DNA from: a virus
Reading direction: 5' to 3' (one strand)
Length of the DNA stretch: 32,780 nucleotides
IMG/VR virus record: IMGVR_UViG_3300008459_000202
Location: 1 to 32,780 of that record
In this document: positions 12,002 through 30,141 of the stretch, one piece after another
Layout: every line of letters starts with the position of its first letter
Position numbering within the stretch: the first letter of the stretch is position 1
Notes under the pieces: model-generated
What the model was told of the DNA's origin: nothing
Databases searched by the model: none
The model's input: only the letters and a program-made list of their open reading frames with translations
Translations under genes and position numbers: made by a program

Positions 12002-13253
12002 ATACACGGTTAAATCTGGAGACACCCTTTCTAAGATTGCTGCTGCTAACAAAACAACTGTTGCAAAGATTATTGCTGCTAATCCAGTATTAACTACTAA
12101 TCCTAAATATAATGGTGGCAGCACCATATTTAGTGGAACTAAACTTACTCTTCCAACTACGGTAAAAGATACTAAGCCAGTACAAAATACACCAGGAATA
12201 ACACCAACCCCACCAAGCGGTGGGACAACAACTGGTTATCCTACTGGTAGTAGTACTAGTGTTGTTAACACAGGTATCTCATCTACAGGTGCTACTCAGA
12301 TGGATACCCTGTCTATGGCAACCTTGCAATCAAAGTTTGGTATTGCTGCTGCAGTTATCGGATCAGATCAAAGTTTGAAAGATGCTTTAAATAAAATTCT
12401 TGGTCTTGATGGTAGCGGTACTATGATTACCGATCCAGGATTACAGCAACAGATTATTATGGGAACCACTTGGTATAAAAACCAGACAGATACTCAACGT
12501 AAATACGGATATTTTAAAGAGACAAACCCTGGTCAATATGCTGCAGATCTACAATTAAATGCAAGCAATATTGTTAAACAATTTTATAGCAATGGATTAA
12601 CCATCAGCTCTGCTGATGCTATTAAGTATGCTGATCAAATGATGCAACAAGCTATTATTAAAGATGGCAAGGTTATGAGATATGACCAAGACTTCTTGAA
12701 TAAGTTAATGGCTGATGCAATTAAGTTTGATAAAACTAATACTATTGACGGCAAGGTCATTTATGACCTTGATGGAAAACTTGAAACTATGGCTAATGCT
12801 TTGTATCAGAGGGCTTATGACTATGGTTATCCAGCCACCACATCAAACGCTGGCTTTACAAAATGGTTTGAATCTACCGTAAAGGGTCTAGTTGCTGGAA
12901 CATTAAATCCAGAAGATGTAGATAACGAATTAAAATCTAGAGCCATGTCATTATTCCCAGGCTTGAAAGATCAAGTCATGCGTGGTCAAACATTAAGAGA
13001 CGCAGCCGATCCATACCTAAGTGCAATTGCACAAACATGGGAAGTTGATCCAGATTCACTAGATCTTAATGATGACACAGTGCAACAAGTTCTTAACTAT
13101 ACAGATGAAAAGGGAAACATTGTGCCAATGAATCTTTATGGAGCAAAGAAGACCGCTCGTCGACATTCAAACTTTGACTTTACAGAAACAGCTAAAGAAG
13201 AGAAAACAAAGATTGCATCTACAATCCTTAAAGATCATGGGTTCCTAGCATGA
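11991..13253 (+). CDS. Virion-region protein with N-terminal LysM domain
   Basis: The likely start is ATG 11991, after AGGTGG, giving 420 aa; an in-frame upstream start at 11967 would add 8 residues. Residues about 4-55 form a LysM domain (YTVKSGDTLSKIAAANK, then NPKYNGGSTIFSGTKLTLP), predicted to bind peptidoglycan. A Thr/Pro/Ser/Gly linker follows, then a mostly helical region of about 300 aa with no recognised family. The gene overlaps its predecessor by 11 bases and shares ATGA with its successor. Together with 4072-5721 and 13250-14824 it forms a set of LysM proteins in the portal-to-capsid interval. They may be ejected or tail-tip proteins that touch the host wall during DNA entry, which is inferred. 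Confidence 0.8.
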   Translation: MADKYTVKSGDTLSKIAAANKTTVAKIIAANPVLTTNPKYNGGSTIFSGTKLTLPTTVKDTKPVQNTPGITPTPPSGGTTTGYPTGSSTSVVNTGISSTGATQMDTLSMATLQSKFGIAAAVIGSDQSLKDALNKILGLDGSGTMITDPGLQQQIIMGTTWYKNQTDTQRKYGYFKETNPGQYAADLQLNASNIVKQFYSNGLTISSADAIKYADQMMQQAIIKDGKVMRYDQDFLNKLMADAIKFDKTNTIDGKVIYDLDGKLETMANALYQRAYDYGYPATTSNAGFTKWFESTVKGLVAGTLNPEDVDNELKSRAMSLFPGLKDQVMRGQTLRDAADPYLSAIAQTWEVDPDSLDLNDDTVQQVLNYTDEKGNIVPMNLYGAKKTARRHSNFDFTETAKEEKTKIASTILKDHGFLA

Positions 13254-14824
13254 GCGCACAAGACGCAGCAAATTGGGCAAGAACTGTTGGTGAATTTCAA
13301 CAGGTATATAATGCAGCAACTACACCTGCACCTGTTACTCCAAAGCCAGAGGTAAGTTATCGTGTTAAACCTGGAGATACATTAAGTCAGATTGCTAAAA
13401 GCAATAACACAACTGTAAAAGAATTGCTTAAAATAAATCCAGCGTTAACTACTAATCCTAAGTATGATGGCGGAAGAACTATCTTCTCTAATACTAAGAT
13501 TGTTTTAGAGCCAGCGGTTAAAGGCACTACTCCAACAACTACTACGCCAACAACTACTACTCCCACGACCACTACCCCAACAACTACTACCCCAACAACT
13601 ACTACTCCAACAACTACTACTCCAACAACTACTACTCCAACTACAACAACACCTACGACTACCACCCCCACAACCACTACGCCTACAACGGTTACGCCAG
13701 TAGCAACGGATACAACTTTTGTTAATCCAACGGTTGCAGCAACCAATTCAATTAATGATCAACTTGCTGCATTAACAGCACAGATTGCAGCGATGCAAGC
13801 TGCTGCTGCACAGCCTGCTAAACCAACGGTTGCTGGTCAAAAGACCATTCGTAAAACTGGTGGAGTAGTTGAAGTTTATCAGTTAATGTCTGATGGAACT
13901 CTTGGATCAAGATTAGAAGAATATAAAGATTTTGGTGCTAGAGATTCTGTATTAAAGATGTTTGAAAATACTGGACTAGGTCAAGCATATATTGATTCGC
14001 TCATGGAAAGTATTGATAAAGTTTACGAAGAGAACATCATGCCAACTGATGCTCAAGTTCTCAATAGTATTTATAATAGCCAAGCTTACAAGACACGCTT
14101 TGCTGCTAATGAAGCAATTAAAAAGCGTATGGCTGATGGCAAGGGTCGTCCTGGAGATAGACTTCTTACACCTTATGAATACATTCAAACTGAAAAAGCT
14201 TATGAGGAAATCCTTAGAGAAGCAGGTCTTCCTCCTGGATTCTACGATCAACAAGAAGACTTTACTAACTTTATTGCTTTAGGTGTAAGCACAGCAGAAT
14301 TAACAGATCGTGTTAATATCGCAAAGAATGCTTTAAATAATGCCGATCAAGGTATTAAAACAGCACTTAAAGATTTCTATGGTTTAACTGACCAGGATCT
14401 AACAGCCTATCTATTAGATAAAGATAGAGCAATTAATGTTATTGATTCTAGATTTAAGTATACAACCGAAGAAGCCAAGAAGATGTATACATCTGCAGAA
14501 ATTGGTGGAGCAGCACTACGTGCTGGTCAAATGTCTGATAAGGCTTTTGCAGAAGAAATCTATGGTGCTGGTAAAGCAGGTCAAGCAGAGTCTGCATTCC
14601 AAGCAGCTGCTACTCAACAAAAAGATTACCAACGCTTAATGAGTTTGTATGGTGAAACTGCTGGCACACAAGATCTTGCTCGTGAAGAGTTAGCCCTTGC
14701 TGGTGGAACAGATGTCACCATAAGGAAAAAGAAACTTGCTTCTCAAGAGAGAGCCAAGTTCCAACAAAGATCTGCAATTGACACGTCGTCTCTTGGACGC
14801 CGTGATAAAACAGTAGACATCTAA
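13250..14824 (+). CDS. LysM protein with long Thr-Pro linker, 524 aa
   Basis: ATG 13250 overlaps the previous stop as ATGA. After about 35 residues comes a LysM domain (36-88: YRVKPGDTLSQIAKSNN, NPKYDGGRTIFSNTKIVL). Residues about 96-150 are a linker of ten perfect TTTTP units plus one TTVTP unit, likely extended and rigid. The remaining 350 residues or so are helical with no family I recognise, and the C-terminus is basic (TIRKKKLASQERAK). The layout of LysM, extended linker and helical body suggests a wall-binding module held away from a virion-anchored body. It ends the portal-proximal block, and a 142-base leader separates it from the scaffold and capsid genes. Confidence 0.82.
   Translation: MSAQDAANWARTVGEFQQVYNAATTPAPVTPKPEVSYRVKPGDTLSQIAKSNNTTVKELLKINPALTTNPKYDGGRTIFSNTKIVLEPAVKGTTPTTTTPTTTTPTTTTPTTTTPTTTTPTTTTPTTTTPTTTTPTTTTPTTTTPTTVTPVATDTTFVNPTVAATNSINDQLAALTAQIAAMQAAAAQPAKPTVAGQKTIRKTGGVVEVYQLMSDGTLGSRLEEYKDFGARDSVLKMFENTGLGQAYIDSLMESIDKVYEENIMPTDAQVLNSIYNSQAYKTRFAANEAIKKRMADGKGRPGDRLLTPYEYIQTEKAYEEILREAGLPPGFYDQQEDFTNFIALGVSTAELTDRVNIAKNALNNADQGIKTALKDFYGLTDQDLTAYLLDKDRAINVIDSRFKYTTEEAKKMYTSAEIGGAALRAGQMSDKAFAEEIYGAGKAGQAESAFQAAATQQKDYQRLMSLYGETAGTQDLAREELALAGGTDVTIRKKKLASQERAKFQQRSAIDTSSLGRRDKTVDI
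13535..13699 (+). repeat. 11 x 15-bp tandem repeat encoding Thr-Thr-Thr-Thr-Pro
   Basis: Eleven consecutive 15-base units, each encoding TTTTP (the last TTVTP), lie inside the LysM gene. The protein repeat is perfect in ten units, but the DNA is varied: ACA, ACT, ACC and ACG for Thr and CCA, CCC and CCT for Pro are mixed between units. This suggests selection on the peptide with synonymous drift that would reduce slippage, rather than a very recent expansion, although three central units are identical. Confidence 0.95.
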
Positions 14825-25976: not shown

Positions 25977-26014
25977 AAAAAGAGGGGGATCTTAATTGAT
26001 CCCCCTCTTTTTTT
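25977..26014. terminator. Strong bidirectional intrinsic terminator
   Basis: A perfect 15-bp inverted repeat (25977-25991 and 25998-26012) with a TTAATT loop. The stem core is GAGGGGGATC / GATCCCCCTC, flanked by A5 on the left and a T7 run on the right. It can therefore stop the late transcript on + and the small - strand gene at 26017-26157, whose stop codon lies only 3 bases away. Confidence 0.95.
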
Positions 26015-26016
26015 AT

Positions 26017-26157
26017 TTAATAAGCAGACTTATCTTTTTTTAATATTCTTATTGCCCAATCCAACCCTTGATTAAACCCATCCATCCAGTCTTTGTCCTT
26101 ATGACCTTCGGGAAGATGCGTCTTCGCATCTTCTATTCTTTTAATGAACTCTTCCAT
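26017..26157 (-). CDS. Small protein on the opposite strand, 46 aa
   Basis: The only likely - strand gene. The start is taken as ATG (complement of 26155-26157); a TTG at 26206-26208 would add 17 residues. The product is charged and helical, with the segment KDKDWMDGFNQGLDWAIRIL, whose WMDGFNQG-type motif looks like a conserved small phage protein, although I cannot name it. A GAAAG run (complement of 26161-26165) precedes the start. It faces the late operon and shares the bidirectional terminator. A regulatory role at the early/late boundary is inference. The ORF contains a perfect palindrome (26112-26133), a reason for some doubt. Confidence 0.5.
   Translation of the reverse strand: MEEFIKRIEDAKTHLPEGHKDKDWMDGFNQGLDWAIRILKKDKSAY
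26112..26133. repeat. Perfect 9-bp inverted repeat
   Basis: GAAGATGCG (26112-26120) and CGCATCTTC (26125-26133) around a TCTT loop. It lies inside the - strand ORF and is followed on + by a T-rich stretch (TATTCTTTTAA), so on + it resembles a second intrinsic terminator backing up the one at 25977-26014. Confidence 0.6.
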
Positions 26158-26168
26158 ATATCTTTCAC

Positions 26169-26186
26169 GGCTCGCCTGAGCGAGCC
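26169..26186. repeat. GC-rich 7-bp inverted repeat ahead of the - strand gene
   Basis: GGCTCGC (26169-26175) and GCGAGCC (26180-26186) with a CTGA loop. On + it is followed by TTTCCC, a weak terminator-like tail. On - it lies about 11 bases before the small gene's ATG, where it could affect translation or serve as an operator. It is the third hairpin within about 210 bases. Confidence 0.6.
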
Positions 26187-26284
26187 TTTCCCTCCCACCA
26201 CCCCTCAACCCTATCAGATTATTGGTAAGAATTACATGCGTGTCGTTGCCAGAGAATGTCAGTGGCTTGGTTTATTATCATACA

Positions 26285-26476
26285 ATGAATGAACTTCCTC
26301 CTCATAGATCGTATAGCCAGTTATCTACTTGGCAATCTTGTCCTCAAAAATACTATCTAAGCAAAGTGGCTATGGTTCCAGAGAAGCCTGCGGTATATCT
26401 TGCTGCTGGTTCTGCTGTCCACTCCATGTTGGAGTGGTTAAACCATGAGCTCTACAAGAAGCAACTTGACAATTGA
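26285..26476 (+). CDS. Cas4/RecB-like nuclease, N-terminal fragment gene
   Basis: 63 aa from ATG 26285 (MNELPP). The sequence SYSQLSTWQSCPQKYYLSKV followed by PEKPAVYLAAGSAVH is the typical start of Cas4/RecB-family exonucleases. C19 matches the first Fe-S ligand and H46 in GSAVH matches catalytic motif I. The frame stops at TGA 26474-26476 (after YKKQLDN), where a full-length enzyme would continue. The matching C-terminal part is encoded at 26653-27330. The two parts are separated by a zinc-ribbon gene in a third frame, so this is not a simple frameshift. The fragments may assemble into one nuclease, or this one may be a remnant. Its clean ends and intact motifs favour function. Confidence 0.75.
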   Translation: MNELPPHRSYSQLSTWQSCPQKYYLSKVAMVPEKPAVYLAAGSAVHSMLEWLNHELYKKQLDN

Positions 26477-26672
26477 CCAGCGTGGTATACCAAGTAATGA
26501 GTGTATCAATTGTGGATCAAACATACAGGTTATTCGTGCAATCTTTAGCAACTATGAATTGGTTATGTGGTTTCTTGATTCCTTCTGTGCGAACTGTGGT
26601 TCGCCAATGACAGCACCTACCCCTGTGGATAATCCTGATTACAAGGAAGAAGATGACAATGACCTCTATTGA
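26445..26672 (+). CDS. Zinc-ribbon-like protein between the nuclease fragments
   Basis: 75 aa. ATG 26445 sits within the N-terminal nuclease gene, seven bases after GGAGTGG, and the frame overlaps the C-terminal nuclease gene by 20 bases. Two CxxC knuckles, C20-x2-C23 and C48-x2-C51 (ECINCGSN, FCANCGSPM), 24 residues apart, would form a zinc ribbon. The C-terminus is acidic (DYKEEDDNDLY). The partner or target is unknown. A structural link for the two nuclease chains, or an independent nucleic-acid-binding regulator, are possible. Good ribosome site and tight overlaps support translation. Confidence 0.75.
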   Translation: MSSTRSNLTIDQRGIPSNECINCGSNIQVIRAIFSNYELVMWFLDSFCANCGSPMTAPTPVDNPDYKEEDDNDLY

Positions 26673-27330
26673 TTTGACACAGAAGTGGCTTGAGGTATTT
26701 AATGATGCCGTCAAGGAGACCGAAGAGAAATCTGGTATTCCCTCGACAGAGTGGAAGACCGCTGGGCGCAAGACCACCTCGCGCCCAGACGGAGAAGACC
26801 TATCGTTTTGGCAGAGCGATGGGCTCAAGCAGGTAGAGGCGTATCAGAAATGGTATGAATCTTCTGGTTGGAAAATTGCTACTATGCCTGATGGTCGTCC
26901 TGGAATTGAATGGGCTGCTGATGTTCACTTCGGGGGAACACCAGTTCGCTTTATTGTTGATGCGATCTACCAAGTAGGGGAAGACTTGGTAATCGTTGAT
27001 TACAAGACAGGTTCCAGGACACCATTCGGTATGATTCAGGCAGGCTTATATGCCTCTGGTATTGAAAAAGCTTTAGGTGTACGCCCTAAGTGGGGTGCAT
27101 TCTTTATGACTAGACAAGGTGTGCTTGACGATCTTATAGATCTGTCGCACTTAACAATAGATTATTTTGATTATGTATTTGGTGCAATGAACCATTCGGT
27201 ATTGAACGGATGGTTTCCACCATCTGTAGGTGATTCATGTCGGATGTGTTCCTTTCAAGATAAATGCCCAGCAATGGGCTCCGTAGATTTCCCACTGCAA
27301 ATACCAACAACCAAGGGAAAGAAAGGATGA
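26653..27330 (+). CDS. Cas4/RecB-like nuclease, C-terminal catalytic fragment
   Basis: 225 aa from ATG 26653; ATG 26659 has better spacing from AAGGAAGA. It carries the PD-(D/E)XK core: D103 in FIVDAIY, D116 and K118 in IVDYKTG, and the Q129/Y133 motif (MIQAGLYA). The end holds C196, C199 and C205 (CRMCSFQDKC), matching the three C-terminal Fe-S ligands of Cas4-type enzymes. The N-terminal part with the first Cys and motif-I His is absent here but encoded at 26285-26476. The enzyme would process DNA ends during recombination-dependent replication. It is followed by a 149-aa gene and a RecA/DnaB-fold ATPase. Confidence 0.85.
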   Translation: MTMTSIDLTQKWLEVFNDAVKETEEKSGIPSTEWKTAGRKTTSRPDGEDLSFWQSDGLKQVEAYQKWYESSGWKIATMPDGRPGIEWAADVHFGGTPVRFIVDAIYQVGEDLVIVDYKTGSRTPFGMIQAGLYASGIEKALGVRPKWGAFFMTRQGVLDDLIDLSHLTIDYFDYVFGAMNHSVLNGWFPPSVGDSCRMCSFQDKCPAMGSVDFPLQIPTTKGKKG

Positions 27331-27336
27331 ACATAG

Positions 27337-27786
27337 ATGACTGAATCTAAGTTCTCATATACAGGCAAGCTAAACAGCACAGACCTATTCACTGTCCGAG
27401 GTGATAGTGCTCAAGAGTTTGCTACCAATATGATTGCTGCTATCGAAGCAATCAAGTCAGCAACAGAACTACAGATCGCTTTAGGTGGTCGTGGTGGTAT
27501 GACATCAATGGATAAAACAGTACAAGCATTAACCAATGCTGGATTAAATCCAACAGTGGTTAGCTCTGGACCTACATCTATTGAGGTAGTCAAAGATAAG
27601 TATGGAAATGAATGGACATATGGACATCCAGATGCTCCAGATCTGCCAGATGGTCGTGGCAAGTATGCCAAGAAGAAGGGTACTAGCAAGGCTGGTAAAG
27701 CGTATGTAGGTTGGTTTGATCCTTCTAAGGGACCAAAGCCATTTACAGTAGGCGCAGTCGAAGCCGAAACAATCTGGACTAAGTAA
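27337..27786 (+). CDS. Replication-module protein of unknown function, 149 aa
   Basis: ATG 27337 after AAAGGA. The N-terminal 60 residues (FSYTGKLNSTDLFTVRGDSA, then AATNMIAAIE-like helix) look like a small alpha/beta domain. The C-terminal half is polar and Gly/Lys/Pro-rich with YGNEWTYGHPDAPDLPDGRG and GKAYVGWFDPSKGPKPF, a motif I associate with proteins next to nucleases and helicases in actinophages. A single-stranded DNA binding or recombination accessory role is plausible from position, but no OB-fold signature can be shown by eye. Confidence 0.65.
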   Translation: MTESKFSYTGKLNSTDLFTVRGDSAQEFATNMIAAIEAIKSATELQIALGGRGGMTSMDKTVQALTNAGLNPTVVSSGPTSIEVVKDKYGNEWTYGHPDAPDLPDGRGKYAKKKGTSKAGKAYVGWFDPSKGPKPFTVGAVEAETIWTK

Positions 27787-28623: not shown

Positions 28624-29135
28624 TAGAACTAACTGAAGACGAAATCATGGATGCTCTTAGGTTTATCCACAGGGTGAGAGCAAATAAAAAGGAGTTTGAT
28701 GTCACGGATCGCAAGTTTGATAAAAACAATTCGTCTTATTCCGTTAATCTTATGGGTAGGTTGGGTGAGGTGGCGGCTTCTAGGCTCCTTCGGATACCGA
28801 CGGATGAAACGATTACGCCTGGCGGTGATAACGGACATGACCTCATATCAGTATTGGGTAAATCTATACAGGTTAAGACGTCAACATTACCGCAATTAAT
28901 ATTTAATGCACCAGAATTATTTGTTTCAGATGTGGCTGTACTTGTAAAGTTTTCTGGGGATAAACAACTTCCACATGTGGATAGTTTGTTTGATGTTATT
29001 GGTTGGACAACACGAGAAAATTTTCTTGCTAATCATTACTTACATGACTATGGTTACGGCACTCGATTAGTAATGGATGCTAATCAACTACAACCGATAG
29101 AGGTGCTTGTTAATGAAATATCCAGACTTCACTAG
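28614..29135 (+). CDS. PD-(D/E)XK-like nuclease domain protein, 173 aa
   Basis: ATG 28614 overlaps the helicase-like gene. The motif set GRLGE (E52), then GHDLI (D76) and IQVKTS (Q86-x-K88), fits the E...D...(E/Q)xK core of PD-(D/E)XK nucleases, with Gln in place of the second acid as in some restriction-like enzymes. No specificity can be read. It may cut host DNA, process phage DNA or act as a restriction-type factor. It overlaps the WhiB gene by 23 bases. Confidence 0.65.
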   Translation: MAVIELTEDEIMDALRFIHRVRANKKEFDVTDRKFDKNNSSYSVNLMGRLGEVAASRLLRIPTDETITPGGDNGHDLISVLGKSIQVKTSTLPQLIFNAPELFVSDVAVLVKFSGDKQLPHVDSLFDVIGWTTRENFLANHYLHDYGYGTRLVMDANQLQPIEVLVNEISRLH

Positions 29136-29388
29136 TGCAACTTGCAGAGGTATCGGAGTAGATTTTTTTTATCAAGAACACAGCACTGCATCCAGTAGTG
29201 AAGAACGGAAAGCTAAAGCAATCTGTAAGGAGTGTCCAGTAATGCAAGCTTGTTTAGAGTGGGGTATTGCTCACGAATCATTTGGTATATGGGGTGGCAC
29301 TTCACCTAGAGAACGAATGAAAATTAGAAGAAAACTTGGTATAGAAGTTGAACAGATATTAGTGAATCATTATGTCAACACCAAGTAA
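29113..29388 (+). CDS. WhiB-family Fe-S transcription regulator
   Basis: 91 aa from ATG 29113 after GAGGTG (a TTG at 29107 is in frame). C11, C38, C41 and C47 (CKECPVMQAC) form the [4Fe-4S] signature, followed by GIWGG (58-62) and a basic C-terminus (RERMKIRRKLG) for DNA or sigma-factor contact. WhiB proteins are confined to Actinobacteria and their phages, which is the strongest host indicator here. Known phage WhiBs can repress or mimic host WhiB regulators bound to the primary sigma factor. Here it overlaps both neighbours, in the early module. Confidence 0.93.
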   Translation: MKYPDFTSATCRGIGVDFFYQEHSTASSSEERKAKAICKECPVMQACLEWGIAHESFGIWGGTSPRERMKIRRKLGIEVEQILVNHYVNTK

Positions 29389-29763: not shown

Positions 29764-30141
29764 ATGCGGTTGAAGATAATGACCGTATTAAGTATGTTGA
29801 TAGTGATATCAACACCAGCGTTAGCCACATCCCCAGTTCTAACAGTGGAGAAAGTTCTCCCGACATTGAACAAGGAAGAAGCTTTAATGTTGGCAATAAG
29901 CACGGTAACAACAGACAAACGAGAGGCTGCTTGTGCGAAGAAGATTGCGTACAAAGAGAGCCGTTACAACATCGACTCGTACAACAAATCGAGTGGTGCT
30001 CGTGGAGTATGGCAGTTACTCTGGGGAAAACCAGGGTGGTCCATACTCAAACAGACATCAGAAGCACACAAGTATGTGCTTCATCGATACGGAACTTGGT
30101 GCAAGGCTTGGGAGTTCCATCAAGAAAGGAATTGGTATTAA
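29764..30141 (+). CDS. Secreted lytic transglycosylase-like protein, 125 aa
   Basis: ATG 29764 after AAAGAGG. A classic signal peptide occupies residues 1-22 (MRLKIMTVLSMLIVIS, then TPALA before the cut). The mature part contains AYKESRYNIDSYN (E65 as candidate catalytic acid) and SSGARGVWQLLWG, the characteristic segments of the SLT/lysozyme-like fold, followed by EAHKYVLHRYGTWCKAWEF. It should cut glycan strands in the wall. It lies in the replication module, 6 kb from the lysis cassette, so a role other than late lysis is possible. It is shorter than typical SLT enzymes, close to a minimal domain. Confidence 0.82.
   Translation: MRLKIMTVLSMLIVISTPALATSPVLTVEKVLPTLNKEEALMLAISTVTTDKREAACAKKIAYKESRYNIDSYNKSSGARGVWQLLWGKPGWSILKQTSEAHKYVLHRYGTWCKAWEFHQERNWY

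Follow-up and report, generated by a model that had tools for sequence, protein, structure and literature searches.

The question raised by this locus is whether the two genes that flank a small zinc-ribbon gene at positions 26285-27330 of the window (the whole stretch of DNA analysed, a linear virus record of 32.8 kb) encode a working nuclease in two parts or are the remains of a broken one. An earlier sequence-only reading had offered both possibilities, a natural split enzyme with a zinc-ribbon partner or an inactivated gene, and the coordinates, lengths, residues, differing frames, overlaps and GGAGTGG ribosome site on which it was based were all borne out by the sequence (Table 1). The N-terminal half (N-half), the zinc-ribbon gene (Z) and the C-terminal half (C-half) lie in three different frames, with overlaps of 32 nt between N-half and Z and of 20 nt between Z and C-half.

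Table 1. Features of the split nuclease locus, in window coordinates.
Feature	Position	Strand	Content
N-half of split nuclease, 63 aa	26285..26476	+	Carries C19 (Fe-S ligand candidate) and motif-I H46
Z ribosome-binding site GGAGTGG	26431..26437	+	Inside N-half reading frame; precedes ATG 26445
Zinc-ribbon gene (Z), 75 aa	26445..26672	+	C20xxC23 / C48xxC51; overlaps both halves
C-half ribosome-binding site AAGGA	26643..26647	+	Inside Z
C-half, 225 aa	26653..27330	+	D103, D116-x-K118, Q129/Y133, C196, C199, C205

Each half was found to match the PF12705 family separately, with 31.9 and 31.5 bits against a curated cut-off of 22; the N-half aligns with profile positions 3-53 (E 1.7e-7) and the C-half with positions 87-247 (E 2.2e-7). 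With PHROG_1870, an exonuclease profile of 313 positions, the N-half covers positions 11-67 (E 1.2e-5) and the C-half positions 75-292 (E 5e-58), and the N-half also matches the exonucleases PHROG_69 and PHROG_1218. Given that the two together cover the profile without a gap, they represent one complete enzyme cut in two from which nothing has been lost; the outer genes are the two halves of one PF12705 (PD-(D/E)XK)/Cas4-like nuclease. The active-site motif set (H, D, D/E-x-K, Q) is complete only across the pair, with H46 contributed by the N-half and D103, D116, K118 and Q129 by the C-half, and the motifs of both halves align with those of fused homologues. The four cysteines, one N-terminal in the N-half and three C-terminal in the C-half, are arranged as in the CRISPR Cas4 and AddB "iron staple" nucleases (PMC3466216), which are single chains. 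The split nuclease is nevertheless not a CRISPR Cas4 by score, the TIGR00372 profile giving 16.5 and 23.1 bits, far below its equivalog cut-off of 65; a defence-system library returned weak Cas4-family matches only, and no cas gene (cas1 and cas2 included) was present among the neighbours tested, namely a DnaB-like helicase, WhiB, a resolvase-like nuclease and a primase. Z lies outside the nuclease family, and Pfam gives only weak zinc-ribbon matches to it.

The best 80 relatives recovered by scanning IMG/VR with the C-half share 80-100% identity with it, and the order N-Z-C and the relative frames are the same in all of them where the contig extends far enough; as with each of the collection scans, the count covers the best 80 loci, which are close relatives, and less common arrangements may be present elsewhere. 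When the viral scan was repeated with a profile of the C-half, mostly the same loci came back, and scanning with Z placed it between N and C, in the same order and frames, in all 78 of the Z-bearing loci listed. Complete N, Z and C were found in at least 105 related loci, with the order kept in every one. C19 and H46 are invariant in 14 N-half representatives, while D103, D116, K118, Q129, Y133, C196, C199 and C205 are invariant across both split clades (see below) and, save for one cysteine conserved at >90%, in 63 sequences that include fused homologues. Outside the overlaps, dN/dS was 0.024 for the N-half, 0.065 for Z and 0.107 for the C-half, so that the test proposed for both fragments returned purifying selection. 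Decay of an inactivated nuclease, or an assembly or sequencing error, would agree with the presence of a whole gene in many other actinophages, but the split, rather than being confined to this isolate, is found in two cultured phages and hundreds of independent contigs, the catalytic and cysteine residues are invariant, and the conserved order in all 105 loci together with dN/dS values of 0.02-0.11 argues that this is not a pseudogene. Both versions, pseudogene and assembly error, were rejected on conservation and dN/dS and are considered extremely improbable; the suggestion of an inactivated gene does not hold. This is a real, conserved and naturally split Cas4-like nuclease, a stable and old arrangement. 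Scanning the genome contigs of bacteria and archaea turned up no relative and hence no prophage or host link.

A second clade carries the nuclease split at the same residue. The best phage-database match to the window nuclease is "Caudovirales sp. ct2KA10" at 33% identity, and the clade as a whole stands at about this identity to the window's. It includes the Planktophila phages LanE43AprF5 (F5) and LanE43AprE7 (E7), cultured lytic phages isolated on a "Ca. Nanopelagicales" host (PMC10202952), in which the N- and C-halves overlap by 17 nt with nothing between them; the words "exonuclease" and "split" do not occur in the paper describing them. Use of the F5 C-half as query brought in 80 more loci, again the best 80. 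Counting F5 itself, both halves are on the contig in 80 F5-type loci; in 75 of these they overlap directly, and in five they are separated by inserts of 308-955 nt. The inserts are other genes, described as coiled-coil-like, which encode 109-114 aa or 107 plus 218 aa, and the contigs differ in the frame of C relative to N. The N-half cysteine and histidine are present in 74/74 complete N-halves of this clade. Close relatives of the window thus keep the split with the zinc-ribbon gene in the junction, and the sister clade keeps the split without a ribbon there. The insert-bearing junctions lie at positions 2045-3017 of contigs L192, L193 and L195, 2682-3011 of L220 and 2661-3005 of L226, and the 218-aa insert protein weakly resembles DUF7574.

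These junctions bear on two further explanations. Programmed recoding, in which a frameshift or bypass would carry ribosomes from N through Z to C to yield one long chain, is suggested by the overlapping reading frames and by the constant relative frames (+1, +1) of the window's clade, but constant frames follow from the overlaps themselves. Moreover, the N-to-C offset differs among the second-clade contigs, five of which have 308-955 nt of other genes in between; a stop directly precedes the Z start in most loci; Z and the C-half each come with a start and a ribosome site; and no conserved slippery site was found in the junctions inspected. Instead of a fixed frame and a conserved recoding site, there are a variable offset and unrelated inserts, on which grounds frameshifting and bypass were rejected as very improbable. 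Group I introns and inteins often split phage genes, and a remnant of one could be imagined between the halves. Nonetheless, no Rfam intron match was found in 26000-27400, nothing in Z matches an intein or a homing endonuclease, and 75 relatives have overlapping halves with no intervening DNA; an intron was rejected on the Rfam result, and an intron or intein origin is given next to no credence. The inserts and the variable frame offset of the F5-type clade indicate instead that the halves are independent cistrons.

The translation signals in the window's clade are in keeping with separate cistrons. Z and C-half starts are conserved, with conserved ribosome sites stronger than those at internal ATGs: anti-SD pairing at the Z site of the window amounts to -6.0 kcal/mol, among 36 distinct relatives 94% of the Z starts reach -4 kcal/mol or below compared to 26% of internal ATGs, and the C-half site is at -4 kcal/mol or below in all 42 distinct relatives. 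The N-half ATG has no recognizable ribosome site in the window sequence. In the F5-type clade, the ribosome site at the C-half start is no better than at internal ATGs, and translational coupling there is consequently an assumption. Independent translation of the halves would be the simplest reading. Two minor observations concern the starts. Z has ACG in place of its usual ATG in contigs L021 and L025, where a TTG located 11 nt before the N-half end, near the onset of homology to the F5 gene, could start Z. Within 26225-26284, about 40-45 nt 5' of the N-half start, a motif of the form GTGTCG-TTACC was observed in most distinct upstream sequences of the clade; together with the lack of an N-half ribosome site, it possibly reflects an early-phage promoter whose transcript has a short leader or none. 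A promoter scan of the region gave a number of sites not above that of shuffled sequences.

The probable ancestral form of the enzyme is seen in more distant relatives. The sequence-only reading had asked whether homologues are fused: the distant ones are, as single chains, and the closer ones are split. A one-gene nuclease is present in cultured actinophages of Mycobacterium, Gordonia, Rhodococcus, Streptomyces and Cutibacterium; a scan with a fused query found a single ORF in 80/80 best loci, and all other actinophages examined keep the fused gene. Those of Mycobacterium phage HelDan (gp71) and Streptomyces phage Ponzi (gp36) are PF12705/PHROG_1870 exonucleases of the same family, with the same motifs (C19, H46, D, D-x-K, Q and three Cys) and a like position upstream of a DnaB-like helicase, and differ in being one chain of ~260-315 aa rather than two chains with or without an intervening gene. 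A PF12705 clade of mycobacteriophages and propionibacteriophages has been described (PMC5704561). In alignments, both split clades break at the position of residues 56/57 of the fused homologue L352. An AlphaFold2 model of L352 (pLDDT 95.2, pTM 0.90) places this point in a loop (residues 55-60) between helices 3 and 4 (37-54 and 61-82), with the H46 position within helix 37-54. The model has the RecB/AddB nuclease-domain fold, matching AdnA (Z 18.0), ACE1, an Argonaute-associated Cas4 protein (Z 17.1), and AddB (Z 15.3), as well as the Dna2 nuclease domain. Modeled alone, the C-half has a confident core (pLDDT 84.7) and matches ACE1 and Cas4 with low TM-scores of ~0.4. Its three-cysteine end is less certain, with blocks at 55-69 compared to 81-93 in the fused model, although the alignments of the two differ; this would weakly fit a missing partner. 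In a tree of joined N and C sequences, the two split clades group with support of 100/99, which suggests that one fission event likely gave rise to both; since the grouping depends on two long-branched clades, and the program warns of the long branches, a single fission is likely but not proven.

Taken together with the conserved motifs, these data point to a Cas4-like nuclease that very probably underwent gene fission and is now made as separate cistrons whose products are expected to assemble into one enzyme, with association and activity predicted from sequence. A RecB/Cas4-like (PF12705) gene would have been split in the loop after helix 3, in a virus from which a large group of aquatic actinophages descends, leaving overlapping cistrons that are probably translationally coupled. 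Ribosomes would make the N-half, and then Z and the C-half from their own starts. The N- and C-halves would associate in trans to bring H46 beside D103/D116/K118 and C19 beside C196/C199/C205, such that both the active site and the predicted four-cysteine (Fe-S) site span the chain boundary. The assembled nuclease probably resects phage DNA in replication or recombination, a role proposed from its family and from its DnaB-like helicase, resolvase-like nuclease and primase neighbours.

Where Z belongs in this scheme was addressed by comparing the two clades. A tblastn match of Z in F5 (E = 1) might have been dismissed as chance, a notion rejected by profile comparison: a homologue of Z, a 59-aa zinc ribbon, is conserved among the F5-type phages (hhalign probability 94.5, score 39.8, compared to at most 19.5 in 60 shuffles with the cysteines fixed). 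In F5, the ribbon gene (26778-26939, plus strand) follows WhiB and a lysozyme-like gene, ~5 kb from the nuclease, which occupies the minus strand together with the replication genes. The window's WhiB and lysozyme-like genes are within the plus-strand replication operon, and its Z is inside the nuclease junction. The F5 genes thus form a small separate cassette (OX376641.1 26134-26939), the window counterparts of which are dispersed (29107-29388, 29764-30141 and 26445-26672, in the order WhiB, lysozyme-like gene and ribbon). Homology to the F5 ribbon begins at Z residue 9, and the stretch before it (residues 1-8), where Z overlaps the end of the N-half, thus appears to have been added when the gene relocated. 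Most likely, then, Z is a single-copy gene that moved into the nuclease junction in the window's lineage, a direction of movement that sequence comparison suggests. The split is older than the present place of Z.

These results also bear on a three-subunit enzyme in which the zinc ribbon would be a structural or DNA-binding subunit bridging the halves. Z is under strong selection and in the window's clade is found solely between the halves. Its profile detects one copy in each of the 12 split-nuclease records examined, and the window's Z is recovered with the F5-ribbon profile; the family is therefore present once in 13/13 split-nuclease records and, by profile search, in none of 19 fused-nuclease records, a co-occurrence confounded by common descent, as all split phages form one clade. 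On the other hand, the F5-type ribbon gene lies ~5 kb off on the opposite strand beside a lysozyme-like gene, and some F5-type relatives have other genes in the junction. A bridging subunit is thus judged unlikely. Of the earlier proposal of a natural split enzyme with a zinc-ribbon partner, the split stands, on its conservation, invariant motifs and low dN/dS; the ribbon is no more than a candidate partner, given that the sister-clade homologue is distant and the halves are conserved with no ribbon between them. Also unlikely is a more elaborate form, in which an Fe-S cluster would act as an inter-chain staple, with one Cys from the 63-aa and three from the 225-aa subunit, and the zinc ribbon as third component; if true, cluster loading (iron or redox state) would decide whether the phage nuclease exists at all.

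Gene fission in phage enzymes has been described previously. The split ribonucleotide reductase NrdA of phage Aeh1 is fully functional, and the halves of the split gp43 polymerase of Aeromonas phage 25 co-purify (PMC2988022); by analogy, these can serve as direct precedent for the trans-assembly of split phage enzymes. As with Aeh1 NrdA, both halves of the nuclease are intact and relatives have one gene. The earlier cases are associated with homing endonucleases, whereas the junction here holds a zinc ribbon, coiled-coil-like genes or nothing, and what makes it notable among split phage enzymes is that the break runs through both the active site and the predicted metal-cluster site and that the junction is free of homing endonucleases: Z is a zinc ribbon, and the two insert genes tested have no nuclease match. 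A homing endonuclease may have been present ancestrally and since been lost. Small genes have settled in the junction between the gene halves with no such endonuclease there. In the OM43 phages MEP401 and MEP402, which are aquatic too, an enzyme is likewise encoded by two ORFs that flank a small ORF of unknown function; that enzyme is a DNA polymerase, and the authors suggest an intron origin (PMC10580990). No report of a split Cas4-like nuclease was found in the openly accessible literature.

Many viruses of abundant freshwater bacteria accordingly encode this nuclease as two proteins. In the single-chain Cas4 Sso0001, changing any one of the cysteines to alanine left the protein insoluble (PMC3466216), and hence a lineage that divides both the ligands and the catalytic His provides a natural test of how the family assembles. 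Phages of a highly abundant freshwater bacterial order offer a ready-made split nuclease, evolved and not engineered, and two of them are in culture and available for testing it. The locus also presents an annotation pitfall: the 63-aa half is readily overlooked, while its 225-aa counterpart resembles a nuclease without motif I.

Two other features of the window may be recorded. A small minus-strand ORF at 26017-26208 (63 aa if started at a TTG, 46 aa if at an internal ATG) diverges from the nuclease operon and adjoins a strong hairpin with a T-run at ~25979-26013. Farther away, positions 13250-14824 encode a 524-aa protein in which a LysM-like motif is followed by a long run of PTTTT repeats.
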